A DNA stretch of 64,000 nucleotides from Stenotrophomonas indicatrix (lineage in GTDB: Bacteria > Pseudomonadota > Gammaproteobacteria > Xanthomonadales > Xanthomonadaceae): NCBI RefSeq assembly GCF_002750975.1, contig NZ_PEJS01000001.1:124001-188000 (forward strand). The letters run 5' to 3'. The notes below the pieces were generated by a model. It had not been told where the DNA came from. It did not search any database and saw only the letters and a program-made list of their open reading frames with translations. This document shows, in pieces, positions 21,750-62,579 of the stretch. The position numbers and the translations under genes are program-made. Every line of letters begins with the position of its first letter. Position 1 is the stretch's first letter.

Positions 21750-21853
21750 GGCCGGGCGGGTGGGGTCAGGCGGGGTGTCCGCGGCATGGATGCCGCGGCC
21801 AAGCCCCCAGGGACGGGTTCACGGCGTCCCCGCCTGACCCCACCCGCCCGGCC
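21750..21853 (+). repeat. GGA-loop structured element, family 1, copy a
   Basis: Outer arms 21750-21775 and 21828-21853 are perfect 26-bp complements. Inside are hairpin 1, CCGCGGC-ATGGAT-GCCGCGG (21779-21798), and hairpin 2 with loop AGGGAC at 21809-21814 between C-rich and G-rich arms. Both loops fit the RsmA/CsrA pattern ANGGA, and CATGGATG and CAGGGACG both fit CANGGANG. The conserved core continues to CACGGCGT. Related elements are at 35012, 62136 and 62393. No protein is coded. The rest of 21714-22060 shows nothing else. Confidence 0.75.
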
Positions 21854-22060
21854 CACTCGCAGCACCGCACCCGGCCCCAGCCACGAGGGGCTCAGCCGTT
21901 GGCAGGAAACCCGCCACCCACATGAACGCCGGAAAACAACCCCCGCCCTGCACACCCCGCATCACCCGTTTTTCGCCTGCGATTAACCGTGCCAGGACCA
22001 CGGTGGACCTGCGCCGGCATCCCTGTCGTCGCGCTTCCCTCGTCCCCTTGGAATACGATC

Positions 22061-22213
22061 ATGGCCAACCAGCAGAACCGTCATCCCGGCAAGGAACAGC
22101 AGAGCAAAACACCGCAGGAACAGCAGCGCCAGCAGCAACAGCAACAGCAGCCGAACGAGCAGCAGAAGAAGAATCCGCAACAGGGTTCCATGAAGAACCC
22201 GCAGCAGCGCTGA
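22061..22213 (+). CDS. Small glutamine-rich protein
   Basis: 50 residues, more than a third of them Gln, with Lys, Asn and Pro making up most of the rest (PQEQQRQQQQQQQPNEQQ). It is fully hydrophilic and has no signal peptide. Expected to be disordered. The ATG at 22061 starts the most compact frame; GGAATACGATC before it is a weak ribosome site. Similar small Gln/Lys-rich proteins exist in xanthomonads, but I cannot name the family. It is probably a real gene. Confidence 0.6.
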   Translation: MANQQNRHPGKEQQSKTPQEQQRQQQQQQQPNEQQKKNPQQGSMKNPQQR

Positions 22214-22270
22214 TGCAGCCAGGGGCCAGAGCCCGCGTTGCGGGGTCTGGTCCCGCTGCCGCCGGTCGGT

Positions 22271-22750
22271 TCAATCCGGAATCGGCAGCGCCCAGGTCTC
22301 CTTGACCTCTTCCATCACGATGTAGCTCTTCGACTCACGCACGTGTGGCAGGGTCAGCAGGGTGCTGCCCAGCAGCTTGCGATAGGACGCCATCTCGCTG
22401 ATCCGTGCCTTCAGCAGGTAATCGAAATCGCCCGACACCAGATGGCATTCCAGCACGTTGGGCAGCTTCAGCGCTGAACGCCGGAACTCCTCGAAGATGT
22501 CGCCGGACTTGTAGGCCAGGCTGATCTCCACGAATACCAGCAGGCTTGCTTTCAGCGCGCTGGGGTCCAGGTGCGCGTGGTAGCCGGTGATCACCGCTTC
22601 GCGCTCCAGCCGGCGCACCCGCTCGGTGCACGGGGTGGTCGACAGGCCGACCCGTTCGCCCAGCTCGGTGAAGGAAATGCGGCCTTCGGCCTGCAGGATG
22701 CGCAGGATCTTGCGGTCGATCTTGTCCAGCTCGCGGGGACGGGTGGCCAT
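22271..22750 (-). CDS. Lrp/AsnC-family regulator (DadR-like)
   Basis: 159 residues: an N-terminal helix-turn-helix (about 5-60, KIDRKILRILQAEGRISFTEL, then LSTTPCTERVRRLE) and a C-terminal RAM ligand-binding domain (about 70-150). It is divergent from dadA-alr, as DadR is in other gammaproteobacteria, where the protein responds to alanine and activates D-alanine catabolism. The start at 22750 gives the family N-terminus; the frame above runs through the promoter. A 24-base palindrome in the shared promoter region is its probable site. Confidence 0.93.
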   Translation of the reverse strand: MATRPRELDKIDRKILRILQAEGRISFTELGERVGLSTTPCTERVRRLEREAVITGYHAHLDPSALKASLLVFVEISLAYKSGDIFEEFRRSALKLPNVLECHLVSGDFDYLLKARISEMASYRKLLGSTLLTLPHVRESKSYIVMEEVKETWALPIPD

Positions 22751-22787
22751 GGGCGTCAAGCTCGGGGAATGAATCACAGGGAAATAT

Positions 22788-22811
22788 CCTGATTGAATTG
22801 CTGAAATCAGG
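22788..22811. promoter_or_regulatory. Probable DadR/Lrp operator
   Basis: Inverted repeat CCTGATT (22788-22794) and AATCAGG (22805-22811) with a 10-base A/T-rich spacer, between the divergent regulator and dadA. A -10-like TATACT is at 22835-22840 without a good -35, as expected for an activated promoter. Confidence 0.65.
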
Positions 22812-22899
22812 CAAATCATCTGGATACGGAAGAATATACTTCCCCGATTATGGCCCCTGCGCATGCAAATGCAGGGAATGATCGGGTTGGAGAATTCCC

Positions 22900-24204
22900 A
22901 TGCGAGTCCTAGTCCTCGGCAGCGGCGTGATCGGCACCACCAGTGCCTGGTACCTGCGACAGGCCGGGTTTGAAGTCACCGTCGTCGACCGCCAGCCCGG
23001 TCCCGCGCTGGAAACCAGCTTCGCCAATGCCGGCCAGTTGTCCTTCGGCTACACCTCGCCGTGGGCTGCTCCGGGCGTGCCGAAGAAGGCCATCGGCTGG
23101 TTGTTCGAAAAGCACGCACCGCTGGCGATCAAGCCGGGCATGGACCTGGCCCAGTACCGCTGGCTGTGGCAGATGCTGCGCAACTGCACCCACGAGCGCT
23201 ACGCGATCAACAAGGCGCGCATGGTGCGCATGTCCGAGTACAGCCGCGACTGCCTGAACGAGCTGCGTGCGCAGATCGGCATCGATTTCGAAGGGCGCGA
23301 CCTGGGCACCACCCAGTTGTTCCGCACCCAGCAGCAGCTGGATGCATCGGCGCAGGACATCGAGATCCTGGCCCAGTACGGTGTGCCGTACGAAGTGCTG
23401 GATCGCGCCGGCATCATCAAGGCCGAGCCTGCGTTGGCCCACGTCGATGGCCTGGTGGGTGCGCTGCGCCTGCCGCGCGACCAGACCGGCGATTGCCAGC
23501 TGTTCACCCGCCGCCTGGCGCAGATGGCGGCCGAAGCGGGGGTCGAGTTCCGTTACGACCAGGACATCACCGGCGTGGAATCCGACGGCGACCGCATCAC
23601 CGGCGTGCGCATCGGCGGCAAGCTGGAAACCGCAGACCGCTTCGTGGTCGCACTGGGCAGCTATTCGCCGGGACTGGTCGCGCCGCTGGGCATGCGCCTG
23701 CCGGTGTATCCGCTGAAGGGCTATTCGCTGACCCTGCCGATCACCGACCCGGCGATGGCGCCCACCTCGACCATCCTCGATGAGAGCTACAAGGTTGCGG
23801 TGACCCGCTTCGACAACCGCATCCGCGTCGGTGGCATGGCCGAGGTGGCCGGTTTCGACCTGTCGCTGTCGCCGCGCCGCCGCGAGACGCTGGAGCTGGT
23901 GGTGCGCGACCTGTACCCGAAGGGCGGTGACCTGGCCAAGGCCGAGTTCTGGACCGGCCTGCGCCCGGCCACGCCGGACGGCACGCCGGTGATCGGCGCC
24001 ACGCCGTTCCGCAACCTGTTCCTCAACACCGGCCACGGCACGCTGGGTTGGACCATGGCCTGCGGCTCGGGCCGCTACCTGGCCGACCTGATGAGCGCGC
24101 GCCAGCCGCAGATCAGCACCGAAGGCCTGGATATCTTCCGCTACGGCCAGTATCGCCACGCCCCGCAACATGAGAACCGCACATGCGTCCTGCCCGCGCG
24201 CTGA
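22900..24204 (+). CDS. dadA: D-amino acid dehydrogenase, small subunit
   Basis: A 434-residue FAD enzyme that oxidises D-alanine and other D-amino acids to 2-oxo acids, passing electrons to the respiratory chain at the inner membrane. The FAD-binding GxGxxG is at the N-terminus ([15 protein letters not shown]), followed by [22 protein letters not shown]. The C-terminal FAD contacts are in [14 protein letters not shown] and [20 protein letters not shown] precedes the ATG. It overlaps alr by 22 bases; together they convert L-alanine to pyruvate. It is longer at the C-terminus than needed for the fold. Confidence 0.97.
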
Positions 24205-25253
24205 TCGACCTGGGCGCACTGCGCAGCAACTATCGCCTGGCCCGTGAACTGGGCGGTGGCAAGGCGCTGGCGATCCTCAAGGCCGACGCCTATGGCCACG
24301 GTGCGGTGCGCTGTGCGCAGGCACTGGAAGGCGAGGCCGACGGCTTTGGCGTGGCCACCATCGAAGAAGCGCTGGAACTGCGCCAGGCCGGCATCCGTGC
24401 GCCGATCCTGCTGCTGGAAGGCATCTTCGAGCCCAGCGAAATGGCGCTGGTGGCCGAGCATGACCTGTGGTTCTCGGTCGGTTCGCCGTGGCAGCTGGAG
24501 GCGCTGGTCGCGTTCGACAGCCCGCGGCCGCTGACGGTGTGGCTGAAGCTGGACAGCGGCATGCACCGGCTGGGCCTGGACGTTCCTGGTTTCCGCACCG
24601 CGCACGCGCGTTTGTCTGCACTGCCGCAGGTGGCGCGCATCGTGATGATGACCCACCTGGCACGCGCCGATGAACTGGACAGCGAGCGTACCCGTGAGCA
24701 GGCCGCGACCTTCGTCGAGGCCATCGATGGTCTTGAAGGCGAGACCAGCATCTGCAATTCGCCGGCGCTTCTCGGCTGGCCGGACGTGCGCAGTGACTGG
24801 GTGCGCCCGGGCCTGATGCTGTACGGTGCCAATCCGCTGCCGGACAACAGTGAACTCACCGCGCGCCTGCGCCCGGTGATGACGATGCAGTCCAAGGTGT
24901 TCGCCGAGCGCTGGATCGAAGCCGGCGAGCCGGTCGGCTACGGTGCGCGCTTCGTGGCCAAGGCGCGCACACGCGTGGGCGTGGTCGCACTGGGCTATGC
25001 CGATGGTTATCCGCAGTTCGCCCCCAATGGCACGCCGGTGCTGATCGATGGCCAACCCGGTGGGCTGATCGGCCGCGTGTCGATGGACATGCTGACCGTG
25101 GACCTGACCGCGCATGCGCAGGCCGGTGTCGGCAGCGTGGTGGAACTGTGGGGTACGGCGCCGACGCTGTCCGAGCTGGCGCCGCGCTGCGGTGTCAGTG
25201 CCTACCAGCTGCCGTGCGGCGTCAAGCGCGTGGCACGCGTCTACCAGGACTGA
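24183..25253 (+). CDS. alr: Alanine racemase (catabolic, DadX role)
   Basis: 356 residues; a PLP enzyme interconverting L- and D-alanine. The PLP-binding Lys33 is in [10 protein letters not shown]. The second catalytic region, around [15 protein letters not shown] with its tyrosine, and DMLTVDLT are present. The start lies inside the end of dadA (22-base overlap), so translation is coupled. The location after dadA and near an Lrp-type regulator indicates the catabolic racemase, which supplies D-alanine to DadA. It can also provide D-alanine for peptidoglycan. SMAG repeats follow. Confidence 0.96.
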
Positions 25254-25262
25254 CCGGCTCTG

Positions 25263-25466
25263 GTAGCTGCCGACCTTGGTCGGCGCTGTGGCTGCGTGTC
25301 GACCAAGGTCGACACCTACCGGATCGGATCAGCGCTGCGCACGGCTCTGGTAGCTGCCGACCTTGGTCGGCGCTGTGAATGCGTGTCGACCAAGGTCGAC
25401 ACCTACCGGATCGGATCAAACCCTGGTCGGCGCTGCGAATGCGTGTCGACCAAGGTCGACACCTAC
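25263..25466. repeat. Tandem SMAG dimers
   Basis: Alternating GTAGCTGCCGACC and inverted GTGTCGACCAAGG palindromes form dimers with a period of about 87 bases (copies begin at 25263 and 25350), plus a third partial copy. The last CTAC includes the stop codon of the DUF3016 gene on the minus strand. Confidence 0.85.
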
Positions 25467-26029
25467 CGGGCAGCGGTAACGCGTGAGGTCAGCTGGCGCT
25501 TCACCCAGTCATCGATCAGGCGCTTTTCATAGCGCAGCGGATCGGTATCGCTCTTCAGGCCGATGTTGTGCAGGTAGCCGCTGTCGCTCAGGCGGGCGTC
25601 GCCTTCGTCGATGATGCGCCCGCTGGCGTCCTTCAGCGTGTACTGCAGGGTGATCCGCGGCGGGTAGATGTCGCGCATGATCCGGATGTCGCGGCCACGC
25701 GGGCCGTGCCAGGGCTCGTAGTCGCCTGCGCGCTTGACGTCCACCAGGGTCACCTCCAGCGTCTGCCCGGCCTGCAGGGGCTTGGCGGCGCTGGTCTGCA
25801 CGTAGCGTGCCAGCTGCTGCACCCAGTCCCCGCGTTCGGCCTCGAAGCGGTTGGTGCTCTGGCGGATCTCGGTGAACTTGGCCGGATCATTCCACTGCAC
25901 GCTGACCGGGCCATCGGCCTGTAGTGCGCGCGGCGCATCGGGCGCGGTTACCGTCCGCGGTGCGGCGGCCACGCTGCCCACGGCAAGCATGCCGGCCAGC
26001 AGCAGGGCGGTTGAAAGCGAACCTTTCAT
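25463..26029 (-). CDS. DUF3016 family exported protein
   Basis: 188 residues. A signal peptide (about 1-25, STALLLAGMLAVGSVAAA) predicts a periplasmic location. The mature part matches DUF3016: VSVQWNDPAKFTEIRQS, a long helix GDWVQQLARYVQ, and GRIIDEGDARLSDSGYL. AGGAGACTGCC precedes the ATG at 26029, which rules out upstream in-frame codons. The stop codon TAG is provided by the GTAG of the adjacent SMAG repeat. Role unknown. Confidence 0.85.
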   Translation of the reverse strand: MKGSLSTALLLAGMLAVGSVAAAPRTVTAPDAPRALQADGPVSVQWNDPAKFTEIRQSTNRFEAERGDWVQQLARYVQTSAAKPLQAGQTLEVTLVDVKRAGDYEPWHGPRGRDIRIMRDIYPPRITLQYTLKDASGRIIDEGDARLSDSGYLHNIGLKSDTDPLRYEKRLIDDWVKRQLTSRVTAAR

Positions 26030-26278
26030 GGCAGTCTCCTGCGTCCCCGAAGCGGGGAGGATGATGATCTCGGATCGAGTGTGATCCCGCTGCGGGGCCG
26101 CAGCAATGGCCAGTAGCGTCAAATGCGTCAACAGTTGCCGCCAATTCATGGTCGTCAACCCTGACTGACGGCGCTTGACGCTGTGAATACGCACTCTGGA
26201 AGATGCTGTACCTCCATCCGGTCTTTTCCTCCCACGCCCTTGTCCACACTGCCGCCCCTCGTGGAGCGCTCACCCTTG

Positions 26279-28264
26279 ATGGTGCCGACGCCCGAAACCG
26301 ACCTGCACCATGGCGTGCTTGAGCGCATCCACGCAGGTTTCTGTGTGATCCAGGTGCTGTTCGATGGCGACGAGGCGATCGACTACCGCTTCCTCGAGGT
26401 CAACGATGCCTTCGAGCGCCACACCGGCCTGAAGGATGCCTGTGGCAAGCGCATGAGCACGCTGGAGCCACACCACGAAGGTGACTGGTTCCGGATCTAC
26501 GGCGAAGTGGCGCGGACCGGGCGACCGGCCCAGTTCGAAATGGATGCCCGTGCTCTGGGGCGCACGTTCGCCGTGGATGCCGTGCGGGTTGGCCAGCCGG
26601 GCGAGGACAAGGTTGGCATCCTGTTCTTCGACGTGACCGCGCGCAAGCAGATGGAAGTGGAACTGGGCGAGAGCGAGGCCCGTTTCAGTGCGTTGGCCGA
26701 TGGCCTGCCGATGCCGGTGTGGGTACTGGACGAGCGCGGCCACGCCCGCTTCGTCAACAGTGCCTTCAGCGAGTTCTTCGGCGGCGACGAGAACCGGGTG
26801 CCGGAAGATGTCTGGCGCGGCCTGGTGCATCCCGACGATGCGTCGGTATTTGAGTACGAACTGCAGGAAGCACTGAAGGCACAGCGTTCGATGCATGCGT
26901 TGGTGCGTGCCCGTCGTGCCGATGGGCAGTGGCGCTGGCTGGAAATGAACGCACGTCCGCGCTTCTCGCGGATGGGCCGTTTCATCGGCCTGGCCGGCAG
27001 CAGCCCGGATGTCACCGAGCGCCGCGAGATCGAACTGGCGCGCGAGGAACTGCTGCAGTCCGAGCGTGCCGCGCGCAGTGCGGCCGAAAACATGGCGCGG
27101 CTGAAGGATGAATTCCTGGCCACGCTGTCGCACGAGCTGCGCACGCCGCTGACCACGATCCTGGGCTGGAGTGAACTGCTGCTGCAGCGCGTGGATTCCA
27201 CCAGCCCGCTGTACAAGGGCCTGGGCGTGATAGCCAACAGCGCGACCGCGCAGAAGCGGTTGATCTCGGACATGCTCGACCTCAGCAGCATGCTGCTGGG
27301 CAAGGTGCAGCTGGAAGTGGAAGTGCTGGACCTGCGCGACCAGTTGAACGAAGCGATGGGCGCACAGGAGCTGGTGGCCGAGGGCAAGGCGCTGGACGTC
27401 ACCCTGCAGCTGCCGGCACAGCCCTGCCAGGTGCTGGGCGATGCCACCCGGCTGCAGCAGGTGTTCTGGAACCTGTTGTCCAACGCGATCAAGTTCACCC
27501 CGGCCGAAGGCCGCATCGACGTGCAGCTGCAGGCCGATGGCAACTATTGGACGATCACCGTGCGCGATACCGGCGACGGCATCGCGCCGGAGTTCCTGAA
27601 CCATCTGTTCAGCCGCTTCCGCCAGGCCGACGGCACCACCACCCGCCGCCATGGCGGTCTGGGCCTGGGCCTGGCCATCGTGCAGCAGCTGGTCGAGCTG
27701 CACGGCGGTTCGGTCAGCGCGGCCAGCGATGGCCACGGTCACGGCTCCACCTTCACCGTGCGCCTGCCGCAGCATCTGCCCGATGCCGAACGGCGTCCGC
27801 TGCGCGAGGTCGTCAGCGGTCCTATCCTGGAACCGATGGTGGTCGAACCGTACCCGCTGCGCGGCCTGCATGTGCTGGCGGTGGAAGACCAGCCAGAAGT
27901 GCTGGAGTACCTGCGGCGCATGCTGGAAGAGCAGGGCGCGAGCGTGTCCGCCGCCAGTTCGGCGGGCGAAGCGCTGGCGCTGCTGGCCGACAATGGCCAC
28001 CTGCAGTACCAGGTGCTGCTGACCGACATCGGCATGCCGGGCATGGATGGCTATGGCCTGGTAAGCACGTTGCGGCAGGACCTGGGCGTAGACGCGGCAG
28101 CGCTGCCGGCGGTGGCGGTGACTGCGCTGGCGCGTGCCGATGACCGTCGCCGTGCGTTGGCCTCTGGCTTCCAGGAGCATGTGGCCAAGCCGTATTCGGT
28201 GGCCCAGCTGGTGGGCGTGGTGCGGCGCGTGCAGGCCACGCGCGGGGACAGCCTGCTGCACTGA
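26279..28264 (+). CDS. PAS-domain hybrid histidine kinase
   Basis: 661 residues with no membrane segment, so a cytosolic sensor. Order: PAS-like domain (about 5-120), second PAS domain with PAC (about 130-250, LADGLPMPVWVLDERG), HisKA with phospho-acceptor His285 (LATLSHELRTPLTT), ATPase domain (NLLSNAIKFTPAEG, DTGDGIAP, GGLGLGLAIV), and a C-terminal receiver with Asp583 in TDIGMPGMDG. The internal receiver suggests a phosphorelay or self-regulation; the output partner is not nearby. A GTG start at 26183 would add 32 poor-quality residues, so I prefer 26279. Confidence 0.92.
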   Translation: MVPTPETDLHHGVLERIHAGFCVIQVLFDGDEAIDYRFLEVNDAFERHTGLKDACGKRMSTLEPHHEGDWFRIYGEVARTGRPAQFEMDARALGRTFAVDAVRVGQPGEDKVGILFFDVTARKQMEVELGESEARFSALADGLPMPVWVLDERGHARFVNSAFSEFFGGDENRVPEDVWRGLVHPDDASVFEYELQEALKAQRSMHALVRARRADGQWRWLEMNARPRFSRMGRFIGLAGSSPDVTERREIELAREELLQSERAARSAAENMARLKDEFLATLSHELRTPLTTILGWSELLLQRVDSTSPLYKGLGVIANSATAQKRLISDMLDLSSMLLGKVQLEVEVLDLRDQLNEAMGAQELVAEGKALDVTLQLPAQPCQVLGDATRLQQVFWNLLSNAIKFTPAEGRIDVQLQADGNYWTITVRDTGDGIAPEFLNHLFSRFRQADGTTTRRHGGLGLGLAIVQQLVELHGGSVSAASDGHGHGSTFTVRLPQHLPDAERRPLREVVSGPILEPMVVEPYPLRGLHVLAVEDQPEVLEYLRRMLEEQGASVSAASSAGEALALLADNGHLQYQVLLTDIGMPGMDGYGLVSTLRQDLGVDAAALPAVAVTALARADDRRRALASGFQEHVAKPYSVAQLVGVVRRVQATRGDSLLH

Positions 28265-28308
28265 GCATTCACGGACGATCGGCGACCCTGCAGTTCAGGA
28301 GGCCGCCG

Positions 28309-28599
28309 ATGTCCCGTATTGCTCCCCGTATCCATACTGATTCCGCGCAGATCGCGCGCCTGGAAGCCCTGTTGCCGCAGTTGCAGGGGGAAACCGAGGT
28401 GCAGCTGACCCTGCACGATGGCCGACGCCTGCTGGGCACGGTTGCGGTGCAGCCGACGCTGCAGCAGTACCGCAACGACGCCGGCGACGAAGGCAGCAAT
28501 GGCCAGCTGCGGCTGGACGATCTTGATGCGCCGGTGCAGCAGCATCACGTGTGGCTGGATGAAATCGCCAGCATCCGCAGGTTGCCGCCGAGGCTCTGA
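28309..28599 (+). CDS. DUF3247 family protein (Sm-like fold family)
   Basis: 96 residues matching DUF3247, known mainly from Xanthomonas and Stenotrophomonas. A Xanthomonas member has been reported to adopt a variant Sm-like fold. Visible are RLEALLPQLQGETEVQLTLHDG and the beta-rich GTVAVQPTLQQYRNDAG, then HHVWLDEIASIRRL. If the Sm-like fold holds, it may bind RNA or nucleotides, but that is inference. It follows the hybrid kinase by 44 bases, and a SMAG array lies right after it. Confidence 0.85.
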   Translation: MSRIAPRIHTDSAQIARLEALLPQLQGETEVQLTLHDGRRLLGTVAVQPTLQQYRNDAGDEGSNGQLRLDDLDAPVQQHHVWLDEIASIRRLPPRL

Positions 28600-28618
28600 C
28601 GGCAACTGCAGATGGCTG

Positions 28619-28807
28619 CATCCACGCATGGCGTGGATCTACTGTAGAGCCACGCCACGCGTGGCCGCGATGATCATTCGAGCAGTAGAGCCACGCCATG
28701 CGTGGCTGCGATGATCATTACAACAGTAGAGCCACGCCATGCGTGGCTGCGATGGTCATTCGAACAGTAGAGCCACGCCATGCGTGGCTGCGATGGTCAA
28801 TGTTCGA
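28619..28807. repeat. Tandem array of 41-bp SMAG units
   Basis: One inverted SMAG (28619-28643), then four head-to-tail 41-base units starting at 28644, 28685, 28726 and 28767. Each unit is GTAGAGCCACGCC..., then GATGATCATT or GATGGTCATT, then a 6-base tail. The fourth unit runs into the 3' end of the minus-strand gene at 28797. Confidence 0.9.
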
Positions 28808-29060
28808 ACAGCGTTGCCGTCGCTTCGAACCTGCGCGCATACGCGCGCTCCTCGGCTACCCGGGTCACTTCATCGTCTGCCAGATCCGGCGCGCCATAGA
28901 CGGCGTAGGCCACGCTGCCATCGGCGCCGTGACCAACCTGGTGCAGGCGGTAGCGGGAATGGCCGCCGCCGGTGTCCTCCGGGTAATGCACGGGGGGATG
29001 GCTGCCTTCCAGGTCCATTTCACTGTTGTCGACGACACCTCCGACGAACAAGGCACGCAT
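28797..29060 (-). CDS. Small conserved protein, function unknown
   Basis: 87 residues, hydrophilic, with no signal peptide. The N-terminus MRALFVGGVVDNSEMDLEG is followed by a Gly/His-rich stretch (HPPVHYPEDTGGGHSRYRL) and an acidic-to-basic C-terminal helix (DDEVTRVAEERAYARRF). TGGAGATCC precedes the ATG. The last codons and TGA lie in the final unit of the neighbouring SMAG array, so its C-terminal end may have been reshaped by repeat insertion. The family is not recognised. Confidence 0.7.
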   Translation of the reverse strand: MRALFVGGVVDNSEMDLEGSHPPVHYPEDTGGGHSRYRLHQVGHGADGSVAYAVYGAPDLADDEVTRVAEERAYARRFEATATLFEH

Positions 29061-29184
29061 GCAGGATCTCCAGGGGTTGCGGGGGAGCTTCTACCCTGAA
29101 CGCTGGCATGTTGCTGCGGCATCAAGGCAACGTTGAAGTTTCGCAAAGCGGTGGCCGGGGCCGGGGCCGGGGCGGACAAGCCGG

Positions 29185-29190
29185 TACAAT
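29185..29190 (+). promoter_or_regulatory. -10 box of the rsmC operon
   Basis: TACAAT inside GTACAATGGACGGCC, 33 bases before the rsmC ATG. Nearly the same 15 bases occur before gph (38853-38867), which suggests a shared promoter type; the -35 region is poor. Confidence 0.45.
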
Positions 29191-29222
29191 GGACGGCCCT
29201 CACGCTTCCAGTACCCGCGCCG

Positions 29223-30293
29223 ATGGCATCCAGCGACGACGCCCCCCTGCAGACCCTGTTCCTGCCGTTCTCCAGCGGCGCCCTGCGCTGGCCGGAGGGC
29301 CCGGTGGCCTTCCTGCGCGCCCGTGACGGCTGGCCACTGCGCGAGCAGGCCGGCGGCCGCCAGGTGGATTGCGAGCAGAGCTTCGCCCCGTTCGCGCAGC
29401 CGCTGCAGCAGGCCACTGGCTGGACCGTCAGCGGGCAGCTGGATGATGTTGCCGGCCGCGGCCGTTACCCGCTGGTGCTGGTGCTGCCGCCGCGCCAGCG
29501 CGAGGAAGCCCGCGCGCTGTTCGCCCGCGCCCTGGCGCTGGTCGCCGAGGGTGGCCGCATCGTGGCCTGCCAGCACAACAACGAAGGTGCCCGCTCCGGC
29601 GAAGGCGACCTCAAGCAGCTGGCCGGCCTCGGCGGCAGCCTGACCAAGAACCACTGCCGCGTGTTCTGGACCGCTCCGCTGCAGGGCCAGCACGATGTGG
29701 ACGTAGCCAAGCGCTGGGGCGCGCTGGACGCGGTGCGGCCGATCGTCGGCGGCCGTTTCCTCAGCCGTCCGGGCGTGTTCGCCTGGGACCGCATCGACCC
29801 GGCGTCGGCCCTGCTGGCCGAGCATCTGCCGGCCGACCTGGCCGGGCGTGCAGCTGACCTCGGTGCCGGTTACGGCTACCTGTCGCGTGAACTGCTGGAG
29901 CGCTGCCCGAAGATCACCGCGCTGGACCTGTACGAGGCCGAGAAGCGCGCGCTGGACCTGGCCGAACTCAATCTGGCACCGCCACCGCGCCCCGTGCCGC
30001 TGCGCTTCCTGTGGCGCGACGTCACCGCCGGTATCGAGCCGGACTACGACGTCATCATCAGCAACCCGCCGTTCCACACGCCCTCGCGTGCGGATCGCCC
30101 GGACATCGGCCAGCGCTTCATCGCCGTGGCCGCGCAGGCGCTGCGCCCGGGTGGGCGCCTGTACGTGGTGGCCAACCGCCACCTGCCCTACGAGTACACG
30201 CTCAACGAGAGCTTCGGCGCGGTGCGCGTGGTTGCCGAGCGCGATGGCTTCAAGCTGGTCGAAGCGGTGAAGGGCAAGGGGAAGGGCCGGTGA
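29223..30293 (+). CDS. rsmC: 16S rRNA (guanine-N2) methyltransferase RsmC-like
   Basis: 356 residues. The N-terminal half is a degenerate methyltransferase-like domain and the C-terminal half is the active SAM domain, the RsmC layout. The SAM motif ADLGAGYGYLS lies near residue 210 and the catalytic NPPF motif in VIISNPPFHTP. It would methylate guanine 1207 of 16S rRNA. ATG 29223 is preferred to one 30 codons upstream in the promoter. It overlaps rsuA as GTGA, grouping two 16S rRNA modification enzymes in one operon. Confidence 0.88.
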   Translation: MASSDDAPLQTLFLPFSSGALRWPEGPVAFLRARDGWPLREQAGGRQVDCEQSFAPFAQPLQQATGWTVSGQLDDVAGRGRYPLVLVLPPRQREEARALFARALALVAEGGRIVACQHNNEGARSGEGDLKQLAGLGGSLTKNHCRVFWTAPLQGQHDVDVAKRWGALDAVRPIVGGRFLSRPGVFAWDRIDPASALLAEHLPADLAGRAADLGAGYGYLSRELLERCPKITALDLYEAEKRALDLAELNLAPPPRPVPLRFLWRDVTAGIEPDYDVIISNPPFHTPSRADRPDIGQRFIAVAAQALRPGGRLYVVANRHLPYEYTLNESFGAVRVVAERDGFKLVEAVKGKGKGR

Positions 30294-31671: not shown

Positions 31672-31683
31672 CGGTGGGGGATG

Positions 31684-31905: not shown

Positions 31906-31914
31906 GCTTTCAGA

Positions 31915-34929: not shown

Positions 34930-34953
34930 GTGTCGACCAAGGTCGACACCTAC
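34930..34953. repeat. SMAG palindrome after dinB
   Basis: Arms GTGTCGACC and GGTCGACAC around AA, ending CTAC. Another degenerate palindrome (GTGCCGACC, then GGTCAGCAC) follows to about 34990. Confidence 0.8.
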
Positions 34954-35011
34954 CAACAGCCGCGTGCCGACCAACGGTCAGCACCCACCAACAGCAGCGG
35001 GAACCTGTCGA

Positions 35012-35189
35012 AGGCGGGGTGGGTCCGGTTGCGGGGGTGTCCGCGGCATGGATGCCGCGGCCAAGCCCCCAAGGGTGAGGGCGCTTTGCTTGCGAAGCAC
35101 TGCTTCGCAAGCGCCCGAACGCACAGCCGCCAGCGGCTGGGCCGGTCTGGGGGTTTACGGCGTCCCCCGCAACCGGACCCACCCCGCCT
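35012..35189 (+). repeat. GGA-loop structured element, family 1, copy b (76-base insert in hairpin 2)
   Basis: Outer arms 35012-35037 and 35164-35189 pair perfectly over 26 bp and differ wholly from those of copy a. Hairpin 1 is again CCGCGGC-ATGGAT-GCCGCGG (35041-35060). Hairpin 2 keeps its stem (AAGCCCCCA 35063-35071 with TGGGGGTTT 35148-35156, one G-T pair), but the loop holds a 76-base insert that forms its own hairpins (GGGCGCTT..., then ...AAGCGCCC). The core ends with TTACGGCGT. The remainder of 34925-35295 holds only SMAG repeats. Confidence 0.75.
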
Positions 35190-35224: not shown

Positions 35225-35249
35225 GTTGCCGGCCAGCGGCCGGCACTAC
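35225..35249. repeat. SMAG palindrome (GCCGGCCAGCGGCCGGC type)
   Basis: GTTGCCGGCC..., ending in GGCACTAC. The same sequence is found in the bioD/MocR repeat at 44316-44340. Confidence 0.8.
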
Positions 35250-35295
35250 CGTTTCGGCGGGTGCAGGGCGCAGCCCTGCAAAAGAACCCCCTACC

Positions 35296-41481: not shown

Positions 41482-41602
41482 CGGGGGACTCCAGGTGCCG
41501 CGCACGCCCGCGCAGCGAAGGGGAGGAGTCACAACAGGCAGGCACGCGCCGATGCCGCGGCCATCGCCACAGACATCCAGCGCCATGCCCACCGCATCGC
41601 GA

Positions 41603-41795
41603 CCTGAGGCTTCCGGGCCGGTCTCCGGGCTCGCCGCCGGGTGGCCCGAGGCCACCGTCCAGGCGCCTTCCCATGCCTGCGGCACAGTGGCGGGTTGCCT
41701 GGAATTGACGTGCTTACCGTTGCGGGGGCAGCGCCGGCATGGCGTGTTGTCACGCGTCACCGGCTTCCCGTTTCAACCTGCCGGCAGGGCCGCAG
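41603..41795 (-). promoter_or_regulatory. Cobalamin (AdoCbl) riboswitch
   Basis: On the minus strand, in order: GTTGAAACGGGAAGCCGGTGA (split by me at conserved GGGAA and GCCGGTG), GCTGCCCCCGCAACGGTAA, GCCACTG, GGGAAGG, and the B12 box AGCCCGGAGACCGGCC (41616-41631). This is the standard conserved series of cobalamin riboswitches, 120 bases before the btuB ATG. The remaining bases up to 41995 show only a possible -10 (TAGAAT, 41910-41915) for the divergent gene. Confidence 0.95.
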
Positions 41796-41995
41796 GTCAC
41801 CTGGAAGTGCGCGCAGTCTACGGCATCGCGGCCGGCCCGTAGCGTCGAACCCGCACGACTGAGCAGGCGCGGATGCACCTGCACGGTGCAGCAGACCTGC
41901 GCCAGCGCCTAGAATGCAGCTCGAATTATCGTGGTGCCGTTGCCGATGTCCGTCTGTTTTCCGCTGTTCCCGCGCCGCCCTGACTGGGCACGCGC

Positions 41996-55654: not shown

Positions 55655-55693
55655 GCGTGCCTTCGTGGCGCCCGGTTGATCCATTCTGCGCAG

Positions 55694-55789
55694 CGCAGGG
55701 CGGAGGCCCTTGCGTGCGAATGTCCTCCGGCGCCGGCCTGCGGCCACCGCCTCCCCCTTTACTTCGCACGCAAGGGCCTCCGCCCTGCG
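55694..55789 (-). repeat. Purine-core structured element, family 2, copy A
   Basis: Outer arms 55694-55720 and 55763-55789 pair perfectly over 27 bp. The 42-base core, read on the minus strand, begins GTAAAGGGGGAGGCGG, contains GGCC-GCA-GGCC, and ends CCGGAGGACA. It is matched by copy B (55863-55968) at about 35 of 42 positions while the arms are unrelated. The core is rich in GGAGG-like motifs. Confidence 0.75.
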
Positions 55790-55862
55790 TCCGGAGCTCG
55801 TCGGCGTCTCATTGAAGGGCCGTCGCGAGCGCTGCATCTGCGCGCCTGGTGCCGCAAGCCGA

Positions 55863-55968
55863 GCCTCGTCGGGGCAGGTGGGGGTTTGGGCAAAGTAAAG
55901 GAGGAGGTGGCGGCCAACGGCCGGCGCCGGGGGACATTTGCCCAGGCCCCCACCTGCCCCGACGGGGC
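55863..55968 (+). repeat. Purine-core structured element, family 2, copy B
   Basis: Outer arms 55863-55894 and 55937-55968 pair over 32 bp, with three G-T pairs. The core 55895-55936 begins GTAAAGGAGGAGGTGG, contains GGCC-AAC-GGCC, and ends CCGGGGGACA. It is in opposite orientation to copy A, 73 bases away. The G-T pairs favour a structure in plus-strand RNA. Confidence 0.75.
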
Positions 55969-56023
55969 CCTTCAGATCGCAGAGACCCGGACGAAGACGC
56001 GCTCGAGAATCCAGACGCCAGGC

Positions 56024-56156
56024 AAAAAAAGACCCGGCAGAGGGAGGGATCTGCCGGGTCCGGATTGCATGGGGGGAGGGACCCATGCAATGAGCGTGGG
56101 CGTCGCGCCAGTGGCTGTTGCCTGCCAGTCGCATCCGCCGTGCATTTGCATTGATG
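56024..56156 (-). ncRNA. Candidate small RNA with twin C-rich loops
   Basis: Minus-strand promoter TTGCAT (56185-56190), 16-base spacer, TATGCT (56163-56168); expected start near 56156. Hairpin 1 is ATTGCATGGG/CCCATGCAAT (56064-56073 and 56082-56091) and hairpin 2 is GACCCGGCAGA/TCTGCCGGGTC (56031-56041 and 56050-56060). Both have exactly the same 8-base loop, TCCCTCCC. A run of seven T follows hairpin 2. C-rich loops of this kind pair with ribosome-binding sites in known sRNAs such as Xanthomonas sX13 and rhizobial C-rich-loop RNAs. No ORF of note. Confidence 0.55.
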
Positions 56157-56201
56157 CAATGCAGCATACGCCGATCATGCGGCAATGCAACAAAAATCAC
56201 G

Positions 56202-56223
56202 AAGGCGCCATCTCTGGCGCCTT
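56202..56223 (-). terminator. Intrinsic terminator of queD
   Basis: Arms AAGGCGCC (56202-56209) and GGCGCCTT (56216-56223) with a 6-base loop. On the minus strand they are followed, after five bases, by TTTTT. It lies 25 bases past the queD stop and upstream of the candidate sRNA promoter. Confidence 0.75.
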
Positions 56224-56248
56224 GAGGCCTTTCAGATCAATGGGTTGA

Positions 56249-56611
56249 TCAGGCGGCGGGGCCGCGGAAACGGCAGCCCGAGGTGCAGGTTTCGTGCACG
56301 GTGATCTCGCTCAATGCCGGCAGGGTGGGCTTGAGCTCGTTCCAGATCCACACGGCCAGGTTTTCGCTGGTCGGGTTCTCCAGGCCGGGGATGTCATTGA
56401 GGTAATGGTGGTCCAGGCGGTCGTAGATCGGCTGGAAAGCCGCCTTCACGTCACCGAAATCCATGATCCAGCCGGTCTGCGCGCCCGGCTCGCCCTCGAC
56501 TTTCAGTTCCACCCGGAAGGAGTGGCCGTGCAGGCGCGCGCACTTGTGCCCCGGCGGCACGTTGGGGAGGCGGTGCGCCGCCTCGAGCATGAAGACTTTG
56601 AAGATTTCCAT
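56249..56611 (-). CDS. queD: 6-carboxytetrahydropterin synthase
   Basis: 120 residues; converts 7,8-dihydroneopterin triphosphate to 6-carboxytetrahydropterin in the queuosine tRNA-base pathway. Zinc histidines are in [10 protein letters not shown] and RLHGHSFRV, the catalytic Cys in [10 protein letters not shown], and [11 protein letters not shown] and [12 protein letters not shown] are family motifs. The start at 56611 is the normal N-terminus (MEIFKVF). It appears monocistronic here, with its own terminator downstream. Confidence 0.96.
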
Positions 56612-56682
56612 GGCGCGATTGTACGCCGCGGGCGGCCGATCAGCCCGGCTTTGCGTTGCCTTCCCGTGAAGAAATTCTTTCC

Positions 56683-56730
56683 ATCCGGATGAAGAGATGA
56701 TAGTTTCTCTTATATCCGTATGAAGAGATG
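56683..56730 (+). promoter_or_regulatory. Direct repeat ATCCGKATGAAGAGATG before a TonB receptor gene
   Basis: ATCCGGATGAAGAGATG (56683-56699) and ATCCGTATGAAGAGATG (56714-56730) are 31 bases apart, three helical turns. An inverted AGAGA...TCTCT (56693-56710) lies between, as does the A/T-rich TTATAT, a possible -10. It looks like a two-site operator for the receptor gene. Confidence 0.5.
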
Positions 56731-56806
56731 TTATTGGCCGCGCCCCGGCCAGGCATGGATTACTGCGGAACTTACCTCGTCCTTCCACTACCTCCCCCAC
56801 ATCGTC

Positions 56807-59446
56807 ATGCCCCAGCACACCCTGCTCGTGGCGGCCCTGGCCGTCGCTCTGGCCGCGCCTTTGTCTGCCGCCGCCGAAATCACCGCCGACGCCAGTGGCG
56901 AAGCCAGCACCCTGGCTGCCGTGCGCGTCACCGGTTCCAACATCAAACGCGCCGATACCGAAGCCTCCAACCCGGTGCAGGTGATCGGCCGCCAGCAGCT
57001 GGAACAGACCGCCAAGGCCACCGTGGCCGATGTGCTGCGCTCGATCTCGGCCAACACCGGCAACGCCAGCAACGAGACCACCAACAACGGTTGGGCCTCG
57101 GGCTCGGCCGGCATCGGCCTGCGCGGTCTTTCGCAGAAGAACACGCTGGTGCTGCTCAACGGCCGCCGCCTTGCCAACTACGGCTTCCCGGCCGGCGGCC
57201 TGTCGGACACCTTCGTCGATCTCAACGCGCTGCCGCTGGTGGCCGTCGAACGCATCGAAGTGCTCAAGGACGGTGCATCGGCGGTGTACGGCAGCGATGC
57301 GGTGGCCGGCGTGGTCAACATCATCACCCGGCAGAACTTCGAAGGCGCCGAGATCGGCGGCAGCTTCGGCGGCGCCGACCAGGGCGGCCTGCACGAGCAG
57401 AACCTGAAGTTCGTCGGTGGCCTGGGCGACATCGACAAGGACGGCTACAACATCCTCTTCAGCCTGCAGGGCTACAACCGCGAGCGTCTGGACCAGGACG
57501 AGCGCAATCTGACCACGAGCGGCATCTACAGCGACCAGCCCGGCGGCCGCTGGAACGGCTGGTCGGCCAAGGGTGCACGCTATCTGGTCAACGGCAACTC
57601 CGTGCCGATGCTCGATGCCAACGGCAACTGCCCCACCGGCACCACCCGCGTGGCCAGCGCGCCGATAGACGGCCTGGCCGGTGATACCTGCGGCTTCAAC
57701 CAGGCCCCGTACACCACCCTGATTCCCTCCACCAAGCGCTACCAGGCCTACGCCAACGGCACGTTCCGCCTCGGCGACAACGTCGAAGCGTTCGGCGAAG
57801 TGCTGTACAGCCAGATCAAGAGTGCTGCCTGGTTCGGCAGCAGCCCGTTCTTCACCCTGGAAAGCGGTCGCTTCGCACTGAACGCGCAGACCGGCCTGGC
57901 CGAGCCGGTGTCGTCCAACCTGCCGGCCAGCAACCCGTACAACCCGTACGGCCGCGCGATCCCGATCGAATACACCTTCTTCGACCTCGGCGGCACCATC
58001 AAGACCAACCGGTCCACCGCCTATCGCGGTGTGTTCGGGCTGCGTGGCAACACCGAGAAGTGGGACTGGGAAGTGGCCGCGTTCGGCGCGCGCAGCAGCG
58101 AGCGCGAAACCGTCTCCGGCGGCTTCGCCAACCGCTGGGCGCTGGCCAACGCACTGGCCACCGGCAGCTACAACCTGCTGAACCCGGCCGCGACGCCGCA
58201 GTCGGTGCGCGATTCGATCAACATCGCCACCCTGCGTCCGGCCGAGTCGGTGCTGCAGGGCATCGATGCGAAGATCTCCGGCAGTCTCGGCCACACCTGG
58301 GCCGGCGACATCGGTTTCGCCGCCGGTGCCGAATGGCGCCGCGAGAAGCTTGATTCGAACAACCCGTGGCAGATCGATGCCGGCCTGCAGGTGCGCCCGG
58401 CAATCGCCGAAGTGCATGGCGAGCGCAAGGTCAGCGCCGCCTACGCCGAGGTCAACGTGCCGCTGGCCTCGACCCTGGAACTGTCCGCCGCCGCCCGCGC
58501 CGATCATTACGACGATTTCGGCGACGCGTTCTCGCCCAAGCTCGGCCTGCGCTGGCAGCCGCTGGATTTCCTGCTGGTGCGTGCCTCCGCGTCGAAGGGC
58601 TTCCGTGCACCGTCGCTGTCGGAGAACTCCAACAGCACCAGCATCGCCTACGGCAGCGTGGTCGATCCGCGTGATCCGGACGTGCCGGGCTCGCGGCAGA
58701 ACCCGACCTTCTTCACCGTCGGCAACAGCGACCTGAAGCCGGAGCGCACCAAGAGCGTGAACTTCGGCGTGGTGCTGTCGCCATGGGCGAACACCAACCT
58801 GAGCATCGACTATTACCGTATCCAGCTGGACAACCTGGTCGGTACCAACAACACCCAGACCCTGGTCAACGACAACGTCGCCGGTGCCGTGCAGCGCGAT
58901 GAGCGCGGCAAGCTGCAGGCGGTCTACAACCGCTACCAGAACCTGAGCGAGCTGAAGACTTCGGGCATCGACGTCGAGCTGCGCCAGCGCATCCCGACCA
59001 CCGCCTTCGGTGACTTCACCGTGACCTCGGCCTACACCCACGTGCGCGACTACCGGCGCCCGACCGTGGTCGGTGGCCCGCTGGTGGACTATGCCGGCAG
59101 CAACCTCGGCGCCACCCTGCCGAAGAACAAGGCCACCACCACCCTGGACTGGAAGTACAGCGACTACACCGCCGCGGTGACCTGGTACTACACCAGTGGC
59201 TACGACCAGAAGGCCAGCACCGCTGCCGCTGCGGTGCAGAGCCGCGTAGACGCCTACAACCAGTTCGATCTCTACCTGGGCTACACCGGCATCGACAACC
59301 TGACCGTGTACGCCAAGGTGCAGAACCTGGGTGACAAGACACCGCCGTACGATGCCTCGTTCCCGGGCATCCGCGCGCCGTACGACTTCAGCCAGTACGA
59401 CCTGCGTGGCCGCTACTTCACGCTGGGCTTCGACTACCGCTTCTGA
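56807..59446 (+). CDS. TonB-dependent outer-membrane receptor
   Basis: 879 residues. Signal peptide (about 1-25, [18 protein letters not shown]), TonB-box region ([12 protein letters not shown]), plug ([54 protein letters not shown]) and a barrel ending in Phe ([10 protein letters not shown]). The start at 56807 is placed by the signal peptide although no good ribosome site precedes it; 56720 is an alternative. Substrate unknown. The M14 peptidase encoded right after it suggests peptide uptake. Confidence 0.93.
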
Positions 59447-59510
59447 TCCACCCGCCGCGGCCGGCCACCCTGTGTGGCCGGCCGTGTTGCCATGTTCCAG
59501 GGGAGTCACC

Positions 59511-62105
59511 GTGTCCTTCCACCGCCGTGCCGTTTTCCCGTTGTTGCTCGCCGTCGCCACCGCCGTATCGTTGCCGCCGGCGGTACATGCGCAGAGCGGC
59601 TATTTCTTCCCGCAGACCACCGATGCCGCGGCATTCGATACCGCCATTCCCACGCCGGAGCAGTTCCTCGGCTATCCGATCGGCAGCCGCTACACCCGCC
59701 ATGACCAGCTGGTGGCTTACTTCCAGGAGCTGGCCAAGCACTCGGACAAGATCAGCGTGCGCGAGATCGGCCGCAGCTATGAGGGCCGACCGCTGCTGAT
59801 CGCCACGGTCACTGCTGCAGGCAACCACGCGCGGCTGGAACAGATCCGCCAGCAGCACGCGACCCTGGCCGATCCGGCGCAGCCGCGCAGCGCTGCCGGT
59901 GGCAGCCCGGTGGTGGTGTGGCTGGGCTACAGCGTGCACGGCAACGAGACCTCCAGCGGCGAAGCGGCGATGCTGACCGCCTACTACCTGGTGGCCAACC
60001 GCAGCGCGGAAACGCAGCAGTGGCTGCAGCAGGCAGTGGTGCTGTTCGACCCGGCGCAGAATCCCGACGGCCGCGATCGCGCCGCCAACTGGCACAACGC
60101 CTGGGCGTCCGATCCGGCCTCGGCCGATCCGGCCGACAAGGAACACGTCGAACCGTTCCCGCAGGGCCGTACCAACCACTACTTCACCGATCTCAACCGC
60201 GATTGGCTGGCACTGACACAGCAGGATTCGCGGCCGAAGGTGGCGCAGTTCCACCAGTGGTACCCGAACGTGCAGATCGACTTCCACGAAATGGGCAAGG
60301 ACAGCACGTACTACTTCGAGCCATCGCCGAAGAGCATGCATAGTCCGTTGATCCCGGCAGCATCGTACGAGTTCAACAAGACCCTGGCCAAGTACCACGC
60401 CCAGGCGCTCGATGCGCTGGGTTCGCTGTACTACACCGGTGAGAACTTCGACAATTTCTCGCCCGTGTACGGCTCGACCTATCCGGATTTCCACGGCGCG
60501 GTCGGCGTCACGGTGGAGCAGGCCAGTTCGCGCGGTCGCGTGCAGGAATCGGTGAATGGCCTGCTGACGTTCCCGTTCACCATCCGCAACCAGGTTGCCA
60601 CCGGGTTGGGTACGGTGCGCGGTGCGGTGACCGAGCGCAGCGCGCTGTTCGATCTGCAGAAGAGTTTCTTCCAGAGCGCGCTGAAGCAGGCCGCACAACA
60701 GCCGGTGAAGAGCTTCGTGTTCGGCGACGCGCATGATCCGGCATTGACCCGACGCCTGCTGGAACTGCTGTTGCTGCACAGGATTGAAGTGCATGCACTG
60801 GACCGCGCTGTCAGCGTAGATGGCCAGCGTTTCGAAGCGGGCAGCGCCTACGTGGTGCCGGTGCAGCAGGCGCAGTTCCGCCTGGTCCATTCGATCTTCG
60901 CCGAGACCCCGCCGATCAAGGGCGACGTGTTCTACGGCAGCACCAGCTACGCGATCGCCCCGGCCTACGGCGTGGCTTTTGCCGGCAGCCGCAGCCGCAT
61001 CGATGGCGGCGCCCGCGTGGTCGAGGTTCCCGCAGTGCAGGGCGGGCTGACCGGCGGTGAAGCGGGCTTCGCCTACGTGATCGACTGGCGCGACTACAAC
61101 GCGGGCCGCGCACTGGCCGCCCTGCAGGCCAAGGGCTTGTCCACGCGTGCCACCTTCCAGCCGTTCACCGCGGCCACCGCACAAGGTGAGGTGGCCTTTG
61201 CCGGGGGCAGCATCGTGGTACCGGTGTCCGGGCAGCCGCTGCAGGGTGCGGCGTTGCAGGAGGCGGTCGCCGCCGCCGCGCGGGCCGCCGGTGTGCAGGT
61301 GCATGCGCTGGCCAGCGGTCGCAGCCGCGATGGCATCGACCTTGGCAGTGACGGCGTCAAGGCACTGCGCAAGCCCGCCGTCGCGCTGGTGATGGGCGAG
61401 GGCGTGGCAGCCACCGAAATCGGTTCGGCCTGGTTCCTGCTCGACCAGCAGCTGCGCCTGCCGGCCAGCAAGCTGGACCCGCAGCAGTTGGGCAAGGTAT
61501 CGCTGGACCGCTACACCACGATCGTGCTGTCCGGCGGCACCTATGCCGGCATCGACGCGGGCGCGGTAGCGGCATTGAAGCGCTGGATCCAGGCCGGCGG
61601 GTCACTGGTCACCTATGGCAGCGCGTCGAAGTGGGCGATCGAACAGAAACTTGCCGACGGCGAGAAGCTGGGCAAGGACGAGGAAGCAACAGACACCGCG
61701 CGCCGCGCCTTCGGTGACCAGCGCGATATCGCCGCGATCGAGCGTGTCAGCGGCAACATCCTCAGCGCCGACGTCGACCCCAGTCATCCTTTGGCGTTCG
61801 GCGTGCCGCGCCGGCAACTGGCGATCAACAAGGAGAACACGGTCATCCTGCAGCCGAGCACGAACGGGTTTTCCACGGTGGTGCGGATCGACGACACACC
61901 GCGGGTGAACGGGTATCTGTCCGAGCGCAACCGCAGTCGCGTAGCGGGCAGCGCGTGGCTGCTGGTGTCAGCGCAGGGGCAGGGCAACGTGATCCTGTTT
62001 GCTGATGATCCGGCGCATCGCAAGTACTGGCATGGCACTGATCGGATGCTGATCAACGCGGTCTTCTTCGGGAATCTGGTGAATCCGAGTAAAGCGCGGG
62101 GTTGA
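59511..62105 (+). CDS. Exported M14-family zinc carboxypeptidase
   Basis: 864 residues. Signal peptide (about 1-28), then an M14 catalytic domain with zinc site [13 protein letters not shown] and second His in [13 protein letters not shown] long C-terminal region (about 380-864) includes [12 protein letters not shown] and [11 protein letters not shown], like a glutamine-amidotransferase-type domain. It starts with GTG preceded by GGGGAGTCACC. It lies 64 bases after the TonB receptor gene with a small hairpin (GGCCGGCC, then GGCCGGCC) between. It probably cleaves peptides in the periplasm or at the surface for uptake. Confidence 0.9.
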
Positions 62106-62135
62106 GGCATTACGCGCCGAACTGACGCTGGGATT

Positions 62136-62239
62136 GGGAGGACGGATGGGCCGCGCAGGACACGCCGCAAGTACGTCCGTGTAGGCTCGTAGGCGCCATC
62201 CATGGCGCCTGCGGTCCTGCGCGGCCCATCCGTCCTCCC
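62136..62239 (-). repeat. GGA-loop structured element, family 1, copy c
   Basis: Arms 62136-62161 and 62214-62239 pair perfectly over 26 bp. Read on the minus strand: hairpin 1 is AGGCGCC-ATGGAT-GGCGCCT (62191-62210), and hairpin 2 is TAC-ACGGAC-GTA (62172-62183). Both loops fit ANGGA; ACACGGACGT and CATGGATG fit the RsmA consensus. The core ends in GCGGCGTG. It faces copy d. Confidence 0.75.
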
Positions 62240-62293
62240 CAGACAGTTTCCTGCGGGCGCGGATGCATCAAACCCAAGGCGGGAGCAAGGGCA

Positions 62294-62331
62294 AAAGCAA
62301 AAGCTGGAATTCCGGCTTTTGCTTTTGTCTT
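62294..62331. terminator. A/T-rich hairpin between two family-1 elements
   Basis: CAAAAGCAAAAGC and GCTTTTGCTTTTG form a 13-bp stem around TGGAATTCCG, with T-rich sequence after it on the plus strand. It may terminate transcription through the M14 peptidase gene. No gene in 62106-62701. Confidence 0.5.
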
Positions 62332-62392
62332 TGAATTGATCCTTCTTCTCTCGGCTACCCGGCGGGACAAGTAGGCGCTGGAAATGTCTGAA

Positions 62393-62579
62393 GCGTTGGG
62401 GAGCGGGGGCGGTGCAAAACCGCAGGCGCCATGGGCCCGAGGCATGCCCCGGGCGGGTTGGGCAGGACGCCCAACCCCGGTCTTGCCGTGTGCGCAGGAC
62501 AGCGCACACGAGCAAGGCGCCTACGAGCTTACATGGATGTATCTACAGCGTGTTCTGCGTCGCCCCCGCTCCTTAACGC
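62393..62579 (+). repeat. GGA-loop structured element, family 1, copy d (85-base insert in hairpin 1)
   Basis: Arms 62393-62411 and 62561-62579 pair over 19 bp with two G-T pairs. Hairpin 1 keeps its stem (AGGCGCC 62424-62430, GGCGCCT 62516-62522), but an 85-base insert replaces the loop. The insert has two more hairpins with GGA in the loop: GGGTTGGGC-AGGAC-GCCCAACCC and CGTGTGCGC-AGGACA-GCGCACACG. Hairpin 2 is TAC-ATGGAT-GTA (62530-62541), an exact CANGGANG site. Confidence 0.75.

Follow-up and report, generated by a model that had tools for sequence, protein, structure and literature searches.

TwoAYGGAY, a catalogued yet unexplained RNA family, is among the most repeated structured elements of the Stenotrophomonas indicatrix genome, with at least 149 matches to a covariance model built here. 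Four dispersed elements in the window (the whole 64,000-nucleotide stretch of this genome that was analyzed) are real, conserved RNAs of this catalogued kind, which is greatly expanded in the source genome; we filed them as a variant of the TwoAYGGAY kind, not as formal members of Rfam family RF01731. On balance, the best overall explanation is probably that these dispersed TwoAYGGAY-type RNAs would each dock one RsmA/CsrA dimer and act as a local mark on outgoing transcripts, with buffering of RsmA in addition.

The earlier note, made from the sequence alone, described four elements with RsmA/CsrA-type GGA hairpin loops in the window, and these proved to be real and correctly placed. R1, a covariance model trained on 23 copies of the 72-nt core from the source genome, finds all four. 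The training copies include E1 and E3, so that their scores of 94.7 bits (core 21766-21837, plus strand) and 84.5 bits (core 62152-62223, minus strand), respectively, in part reflect the training itself; outside the training set, E2 and E4 scored 43.9 bits (core 35028-35096, plus strand) and 33.8 bits (core 62491-62561, plus strand). The runner-up in the window, at 23.3 bits, was E3 read on its reverse strand, followed by the best unrelated match (17.2 bits).

Element E1 (21750..21853, plus strand), supported by the covariance model, folding, and sequence reading, consists of a left arm (21750-21775), a hairpin-1 loop CATGGATG (21785-21792), a hairpin-2 loop CAGGGACG (21808-21815), and a right arm (21828-21853); an intrinsic-terminator-like hairpin with a T run was recognized by eye directly before it (21680..21712, plus strand). 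The same three lines of evidence identify E3 (62136..62239, minus strand), with the left arm at 62214-62239, hairpin-1 loop CATGGATG at 62197-62204, hairpin-2 loop CACGGACG at 62174-62181, and right arm at 62136-62161. The folding energy of both elements was better than that of 200/200 dinucleotide shuffles (z of -8.7 for E1 and -12.3 for E3); hairpin 2 as drawn is absent from their unconstrained folds, and its support is comparative. E2 (35012..35189, plus strand) and E4 (62393..62579, plus strand) were identified by the covariance model and sequence reading. E2 comprises a left arm (35012-35037), a hairpin-1 loop CATGGATG (35047-35054), a hairpin 2 that is long, bears an insert, and has no GGA loop, and a right arm (35164-35189). 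In E4, the arms lie at about 62393-62416 and about 62556-62579, an insert takes the place of hairpin 1 and carries two AGGA loops, their GGA at 62465 and 62497, and the hairpin-2 loop reads CATGGATG (62532-62539). The loop letters given in the earlier note were correctly read, with qualifications: E2 retains a single canonical GGA loop, its second hairpin being replaced by the insert-bearing one, and in E4 the insert replaces the first hairpin. Among the outer stems given as 26, 26, 26, and 19 bp, those of E1, E2, and E3 are indeed 26 bp long, whereas that of E4 is about 24 bp with mismatches. The middle segment between the outward-facing E3 (minus) and E4 (plus), 62240..62392, without strand, contains a perfect, terminator-like palindrome at about 62292-62328, seen by eye.

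The insert modules of E2 and E4 recur in other loci and species (L107, L125, L026, and L034), at hairpin 2 in the E2 type or at hairpin 1 in the E4 type, which adds two AGGA-loop hairpins. Short REP-like palindromes adjoin E2 (window about 34930-34990 and 35233-35257). Most elements of the source genome have a GGAAACTGTC-like box directly before the outer stem, at the 5' edge (e.g., window 62240-62251, minus strand); this box was present in the copies inspected from Stenotrophomonas and not seen in those inspected from other genera. Elsewhere in the window, a cobalamin riboswitch (41599-41819, minus strand, 92 bits) is the sole Rfam match above cut-off, and a long, near-perfect inverted repeat with 27-bp arms occupies 55694-55789, where a match to a microRNA model is due to chance.

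The complete element follows a constant order: an outer stem of ~26 bp, then three bases, hairpin 1, whose loop is C-ATGGAT-G, four bases, hairpin 2 with the loop C-ANGGAN-G, two bases, and the second arm. In the stem of hairpin 2, GCY pairs with RGC around three more pairs and a YTYAC bulge. This is a conserved RNA structure in which pairing is kept through compensatory stem changes. The stems covary strongly: the fraction of paired cells was 98.4% of 506 (101 two-sided) in 22 distinct copies from the source genome, 98.8% of 574 (171 two-sided) in 25 copies from distant loci, and 97.6% of 960 (250 two-sided) in 42 distinct copies, the latter two alignments having been fitted to the R1 model, and the covariation score was reached by 0/500 shuffles in each of the three. 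Two weaker measures were unexceptional in the 22-copy alignment, with the number of pairs showing two-sided change reached by 38/500 shuffles and that of further pair types by 265/500. The outer-stem sequences, said to be unrelated, are so between genera; within the source genome, a few stem families hold the 142 copies (46, 20, 14, 10, 6, 5, and 5 copies, plus smaller families). Stem length is held at 25-28 bp in 130/146 copies of the source genome and is mostly 25-34 bp elsewhere.

The loops are more constant than the stems: in both hairpins, the A, the GGA, and the closing C-G pair hardly change, unlike the stem sequences. Among the 142 copies of exactly 72 nt in the source genome, hairpin 1 reads CATGGATG in 138 and hairpin 2 reads C-ANGGAN-G in 139; in other families, the respective loops are kept in 57/58 and 58/58 copies. 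Common versions of the second loop are AGGGAY and AAGGAY. Two CANGGANG motifs are present in 141/146 cores of the source genome, and 30/167 distinct cores in the pooled foreign set have one only. A distance of 23 nt separates the starts of the two loop octamers in 261 of the 276 two-site cores. These features agree with those of CsrA/RsmA sites in the available part of PMC7652899, where the RsmE hexaloop is ANGGAN, one dimer bridges two sites 10-63 nt apart, the SELEX consensus is RUACARGGAUGU, and 44/55 ligands have six-base loops: the element has C-G-closed ANGGAN hexaloops at a spacing within the reach of one dimer. The exact SELEX consensus occurs in 21/167 distinct foreign cores, part of that set having been fetched by a pattern that contains hairpin 2. 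Most SELEX hairpins in the same portion of PMC7652899 have four pairs or fewer, unlike hairpin 1 here, many stems of which are long and GC-rich. The best reading of the loops is that they would bind RsmA/CsrA, and each element could then hold one dimer.

Copy numbers are high and uneven. In the source genome, 150 of the 6327 first-look candidates were scored, giving at least 149 R1 matches, with E4 as one copy beyond these; most counts below refer to 146 of the 149, three insert-bearing matches of 43-44 bits, including E2, being excluded, and those on gene orientation and the 3' side to the set with E2 and E4 added and 2/148 dropped. R1 matches were found in 23 of 41 genomes of a set of relatives that includes the source genome, in 20/25 Stenotrophomonas genomes (0 to at least 121 copies per genome), and, with stricter filters and at most 17 candidates scored per genome, in 52/281 genomes across the class. 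Records with the core pattern, among the matches listed, included ones from Marinobacter, Rheinheimera, Marinimicrobium, Microbulbifer, and Aquisalimonas. The csrA gene (PF02599) was found in 249 of the 281 class genomes, namely, in 51/52 with the element vs 198/229 without it (Fisher p=0.014, uncorrected for kinship). The genome lacking a CsrA match, G232, is in 270 contigs and has nine element matches; it represents either an assembly gap or a useful test case, and it speaks against the RsmA/CsrA reading as it stands.

The stem mismatches were used to ask which strand is the functional RNA: wherever one RNA forms G.U, the RNA of the opposite strand has an A.C mismatch. Counting distinct events, without tree correction, the outer stems in the source genome show 76 G.T vs 18 A.C on the GGA strand (p=1.2e-9). 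On the GGA strand of foreign copies, the ratio was 55:11 in 66 copies from other families and 79:21 in 96 further copies, two sets that may share genomes. The 96-copy set was fetched by a pattern containing the hairpin-2 loop, so that its loops are not independent evidence; it omits the Stenotrophomonas locus L311, and its counts rest on the matches listed and are to be read as "at least." G.U is rare for a structured RNA, at 79/3911 outer-stem positions in the source genome, and the excess of G.T is not significant in some subsets, such as copies between same-strand genes (17:7, p=0.064) and one genome quarter (3:3). The inner hairpins of the source genome have 3 G.T vs 10 A.C, few events and opposite to the GGA-strand reading. 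The excess of G.T over A.C in the outer stems indicates that selection probably acts on the GGA-strand RNA. It could instead come from a mutation bias, that is, more C to T changes on the GGA strand, for example via transcription, without selection for G.U, and the stem changes go in this direction (34 C>T vs 16 G>A). Such a bias is nevertheless highly unlikely as the explanation: in stem families of at least six copies, substitutions towards G.U vs A.C stand at 40:19 in stems but are balanced at 31:31 in the flanks (20 C>T, 14 G>A, 11 A>G, and 17 T>C; small numbers), with 7:13 in the core, and the asymmetry holds for plus-strand (41:11) and minus-strand (37:8) copies alike.

Elements on opposite strands face outward. 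The 103 sites in the source genome include 42 with opposite-strand pairs (<1000 bp apart), of which 42 are (-,+) and none (+,-); one site is (-,-). Together with 5/5 pairs elsewhere (four from G264) and 11/11 in the 96-copy foreign set (<600 bp apart), all 58/58 nearby opposite-strand pairs face outward. One foreign (+,-) neighbor pair, L366, is about 1.2 kb apart, beyond the pair limit. Same-strand neighbors were observed once in the source genome, three times in the 96-copy foreign set, and at L298 and L300; in L298 (G327), three same-strand elements form a series about 105 bp apart. REP-like repeats fill the middle of many outward pairs and, like the palindromes next to E2, are presumably SMAG-like.

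Copies in the source genome lie between convergent genes in 58 cases and between divergent genes in 15. For copies flanked by tandem genes, the GGA strand is sense in 33 and antisense in 40, which argues against ordinary 3'-UTR control. The proposal that the elements are RsmA-binding RNA repeats gains from the conserved structure, the RsmA/CsrA-type hexaloops at fixed spacing, the mismatch pattern of the GGA strand, and the co-occurrence with csrA, but its variant in which they are plain 3'-UTR control sites is not supported by the orientation counts, and we do not favor it. The 3' side of the element is the one nearer a gene in 133/146 copies of the source genome (82/86 paired and 51/60 unpaired, where an unpaired copy may have an overlooked insert-bearing partner, and the gene calls miss short open reading frames, e.g., after E1). 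This tendency, strong as it is in the source genome, is not a general rule: in other genera, it was seen in 37/67 copies, with cruder ORF calls and 38/105 copies dropped for an ORF-internal or edge position.

No general promoter belonging to the element was detected among 158 foreign and 146 source-genome copies: with hand-entered hexamer weights, sigma-70 scores on the 5' side are not above those of shuffles (mean rank 0.45 and 0.61, respectively), and an own promoter was not accepted as a general feature. With the same weights, sense did not differ significantly from antisense on the 5' side (p=0.079 in foreign copies and 0.144 in the source genome), and 5'-side sense scores exceeded 3'-side sense scores (p=0.007 in other genera and 0.047 in the source genome). 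Another possibility is a global sponge, in which all copies combined would be transcribed strongly enough to titrate RsmA/CsrA, amounting to a genome-wide, scattered counterpart of CsrB or RsmZ. The at least 149 matches, nearly all with two loops, and the lack of orientation bias between tandem genes would fit a sponge; with no own promoter found, and with copy numbers within the genus anywhere between 0 and at least 121, odd for an essential titrator, we consider it unlikely.

Nor do the elements resemble terminators, as TTTT follows the right arm in only 4/146 copies of the source genome and 8/155 others. A terminator-like site in sense orientation precedes 25/146 and 6/155 copies, respectively, and an initial idea, that every copy comes after a terminator, was abandoned. 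In the source genome, 98/146 copies face the stop of an opposite-strand gene, which, along with the held stem length and the pairing kept through sequence change, would be expected of a CsrA-independent barrier at transcript ends or boundaries, where the outer stem would stop exonucleases or serve as an RNase III cleavage site, and the loops would have some other binding partner or contribute to folding. This barrier is rather improbable, given the near invariance of the loop A, the GGA, and the closing C-G pair next to variable stems and given that 142/146 copies have no U tract after the right arm.

Orthologous sites within the genus differ en bloc. The E1 site is occupied in three of 30 loci, those of the source genome, G074, and G021, the last with a different stem and core; the other loci inspected have neither the element nor the adjoining terminator. 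At the E3 site, a core was found by script in 20/30 loci, 13 of these 20 with stems pairing at 26/26 positions, in three stem types that mainly share their ends; the 10 loci without a core by script include an insert-bearing copy recognized by eye (L107) and a contig edge (L114). Whole stems differ at this site between species, and also between the source genome and G074, which points to stem evolution by exchange between copies as well as by point change. Copies are lost through deletions that leave part of an arm (source genome/G074 and, by eye, L111, L121, and L125), and the one presence/absence difference in the stretch compared between the source genome and G074 looks like a deletion in the former. 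We saw no empty site carrying just one arm, and an origin of the outer stem from target duplication is not supported. Such block differences, the high copy number, the patchy occurrence in the genus, the opposite-orientation pairs, and the presumably SMAG-like repeats inside many pairs could all mark a selfish or structural DNA repeat of the REP/BIME type with a secondary RNA fold. This is very improbable in view of the G.T:A.C asymmetry on one strand, the conservation of the element over 52/281 class genomes, and the lack of any insertion with a clean empty site among the sites seen.

The structure and its covariation, the loops, their spacing, the copy number, the outward pairing, and the GGA-strand surplus of G.T relative to A.C are computed results. 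From these, the docking and local marking of outgoing transcripts can be pictured as follows. Polymerase would run outward through the intergenic region, presumably in read-through, antisense, or other non-coding transcription, and the GGA-strand RNA would fold, with the outer stem of about 25-30 bp isolating the two-hairpin core. One RsmA/CsrA dimer would probably bridge the C-G-closed ANGGAN hexaloops 23 nt apart, and RNase III may cut the outer stem. Most likely, the element would locally mark transcripts as they exit intergenic regions, would be bound by RsmA and processed, and some 300 predicted sites per genome might also buffer free RsmA. A broader version, in which outward-facing elements, each able to dock one RsmA/CsrA dimer, bracket intergenic regions of many Gammaproteobacteria and tag any read-through, antisense, or other non-coding transcript on its way out, forming a genome-wide, strand-directional RNA boundary system and RsmA buffer, is tentative and doubtful as it stands. 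If RsmA/CsrA does bind, those some 300 predicted sites per genome would have to be reckoned with whenever RsmA availability is considered. The function of the element has become testable through its high copy number, its orientation, and the way its two strands evolve, and the strand test and outward pairing offer direct, cheap ways to do so.

The statement in the earlier note that elements in this role had not been described is contradicted by RF01731, RF02770, and PMC4333381. TwoAYGGAY (RF01731, clan CL00106) likewise has two AYGGAY-type hairpins inside a poorly conserved outer stem, an architecture shared by the present elements, apart from E2, which lacks the second loop; the difference is that the loops here are ANGGAN. 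E3 aligned end to end with RF01731 at 31.6 bits (E 0.54), and no copy in the window reached the gathering cut-off of 43 bits; in the whole source genome, nine matches had E<=0.001 and a single copy, at 43.2 bits, passed the cut-off. A second Rfam family, RF02770 (Ysr224, a Yersinia sRNA), gave 105 matches at E<=0.01 (best 40.5 bits, none over the 70-bit cut-off), and 105/105 overlap an R1 match on the opposite strand. RF02770 and RF01731 describe opposite strands of one element. In the available portions of the respective papers, transcripts of several Ysr224 copies were detected by RNA-seq in Yersinia ruckeri (PMC12112432, strand unchecked), Ysr224 is among the most often annotated sRNAs (PMC9029176), TwoAYGGAY is regarded as probably an RNA and probably not cis-regulatory (PMC2864571), and TwoAYGGAY is touched on for structure only (PMC11701678 and PMC7657543).

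CsrA antagonists of the CsrB/RsmY/RsmZ type share repeated GGA hairpins for CsrA/RsmA, according to the available text of PMC7652899. The present elements differ from these in that each has two loops, copies are numerous and dispersed, and the search for a promoter signal found none. Xanthomonas campestris belongs to the same order-level group as the source genome. Its RsmU, in the accessible part of PMC7694677, is an RsmA-binding sRNA derived from a 3' UTR, likewise untranslated sequence, and is set apart by description as a single locus with no Rfam homolog reported there. REP/BIME and GTAG repeats, as portrayed in part of PMC3733652, are similarly high-copy intergenic palindromes, often in opposite orientation; the element analyzed here is longer, with a two-hairpin core bearing conserved GGA loops and no GTAG tag in the core consensus. 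The idea that the TwoAYGGAY family binds CsrA is already in print in the accessible text of PMC4333381 (2014), which predicts such binding and calls for tests. High copy number, outward pairs, and a strand test do not appear in the available portions of the TwoAYGGAY literature, and among the literature listed, with subscription papers mostly outside its scope, there is no account of the dispersed paired organization, the strand test, or the RF01731/RF02770 identity. The present analysis adds the genome-wide abundance, the occurrence across the class, the 23-nt loop spacing, the compensatory stem changes, the strand asymmetry, and the outward pairing.
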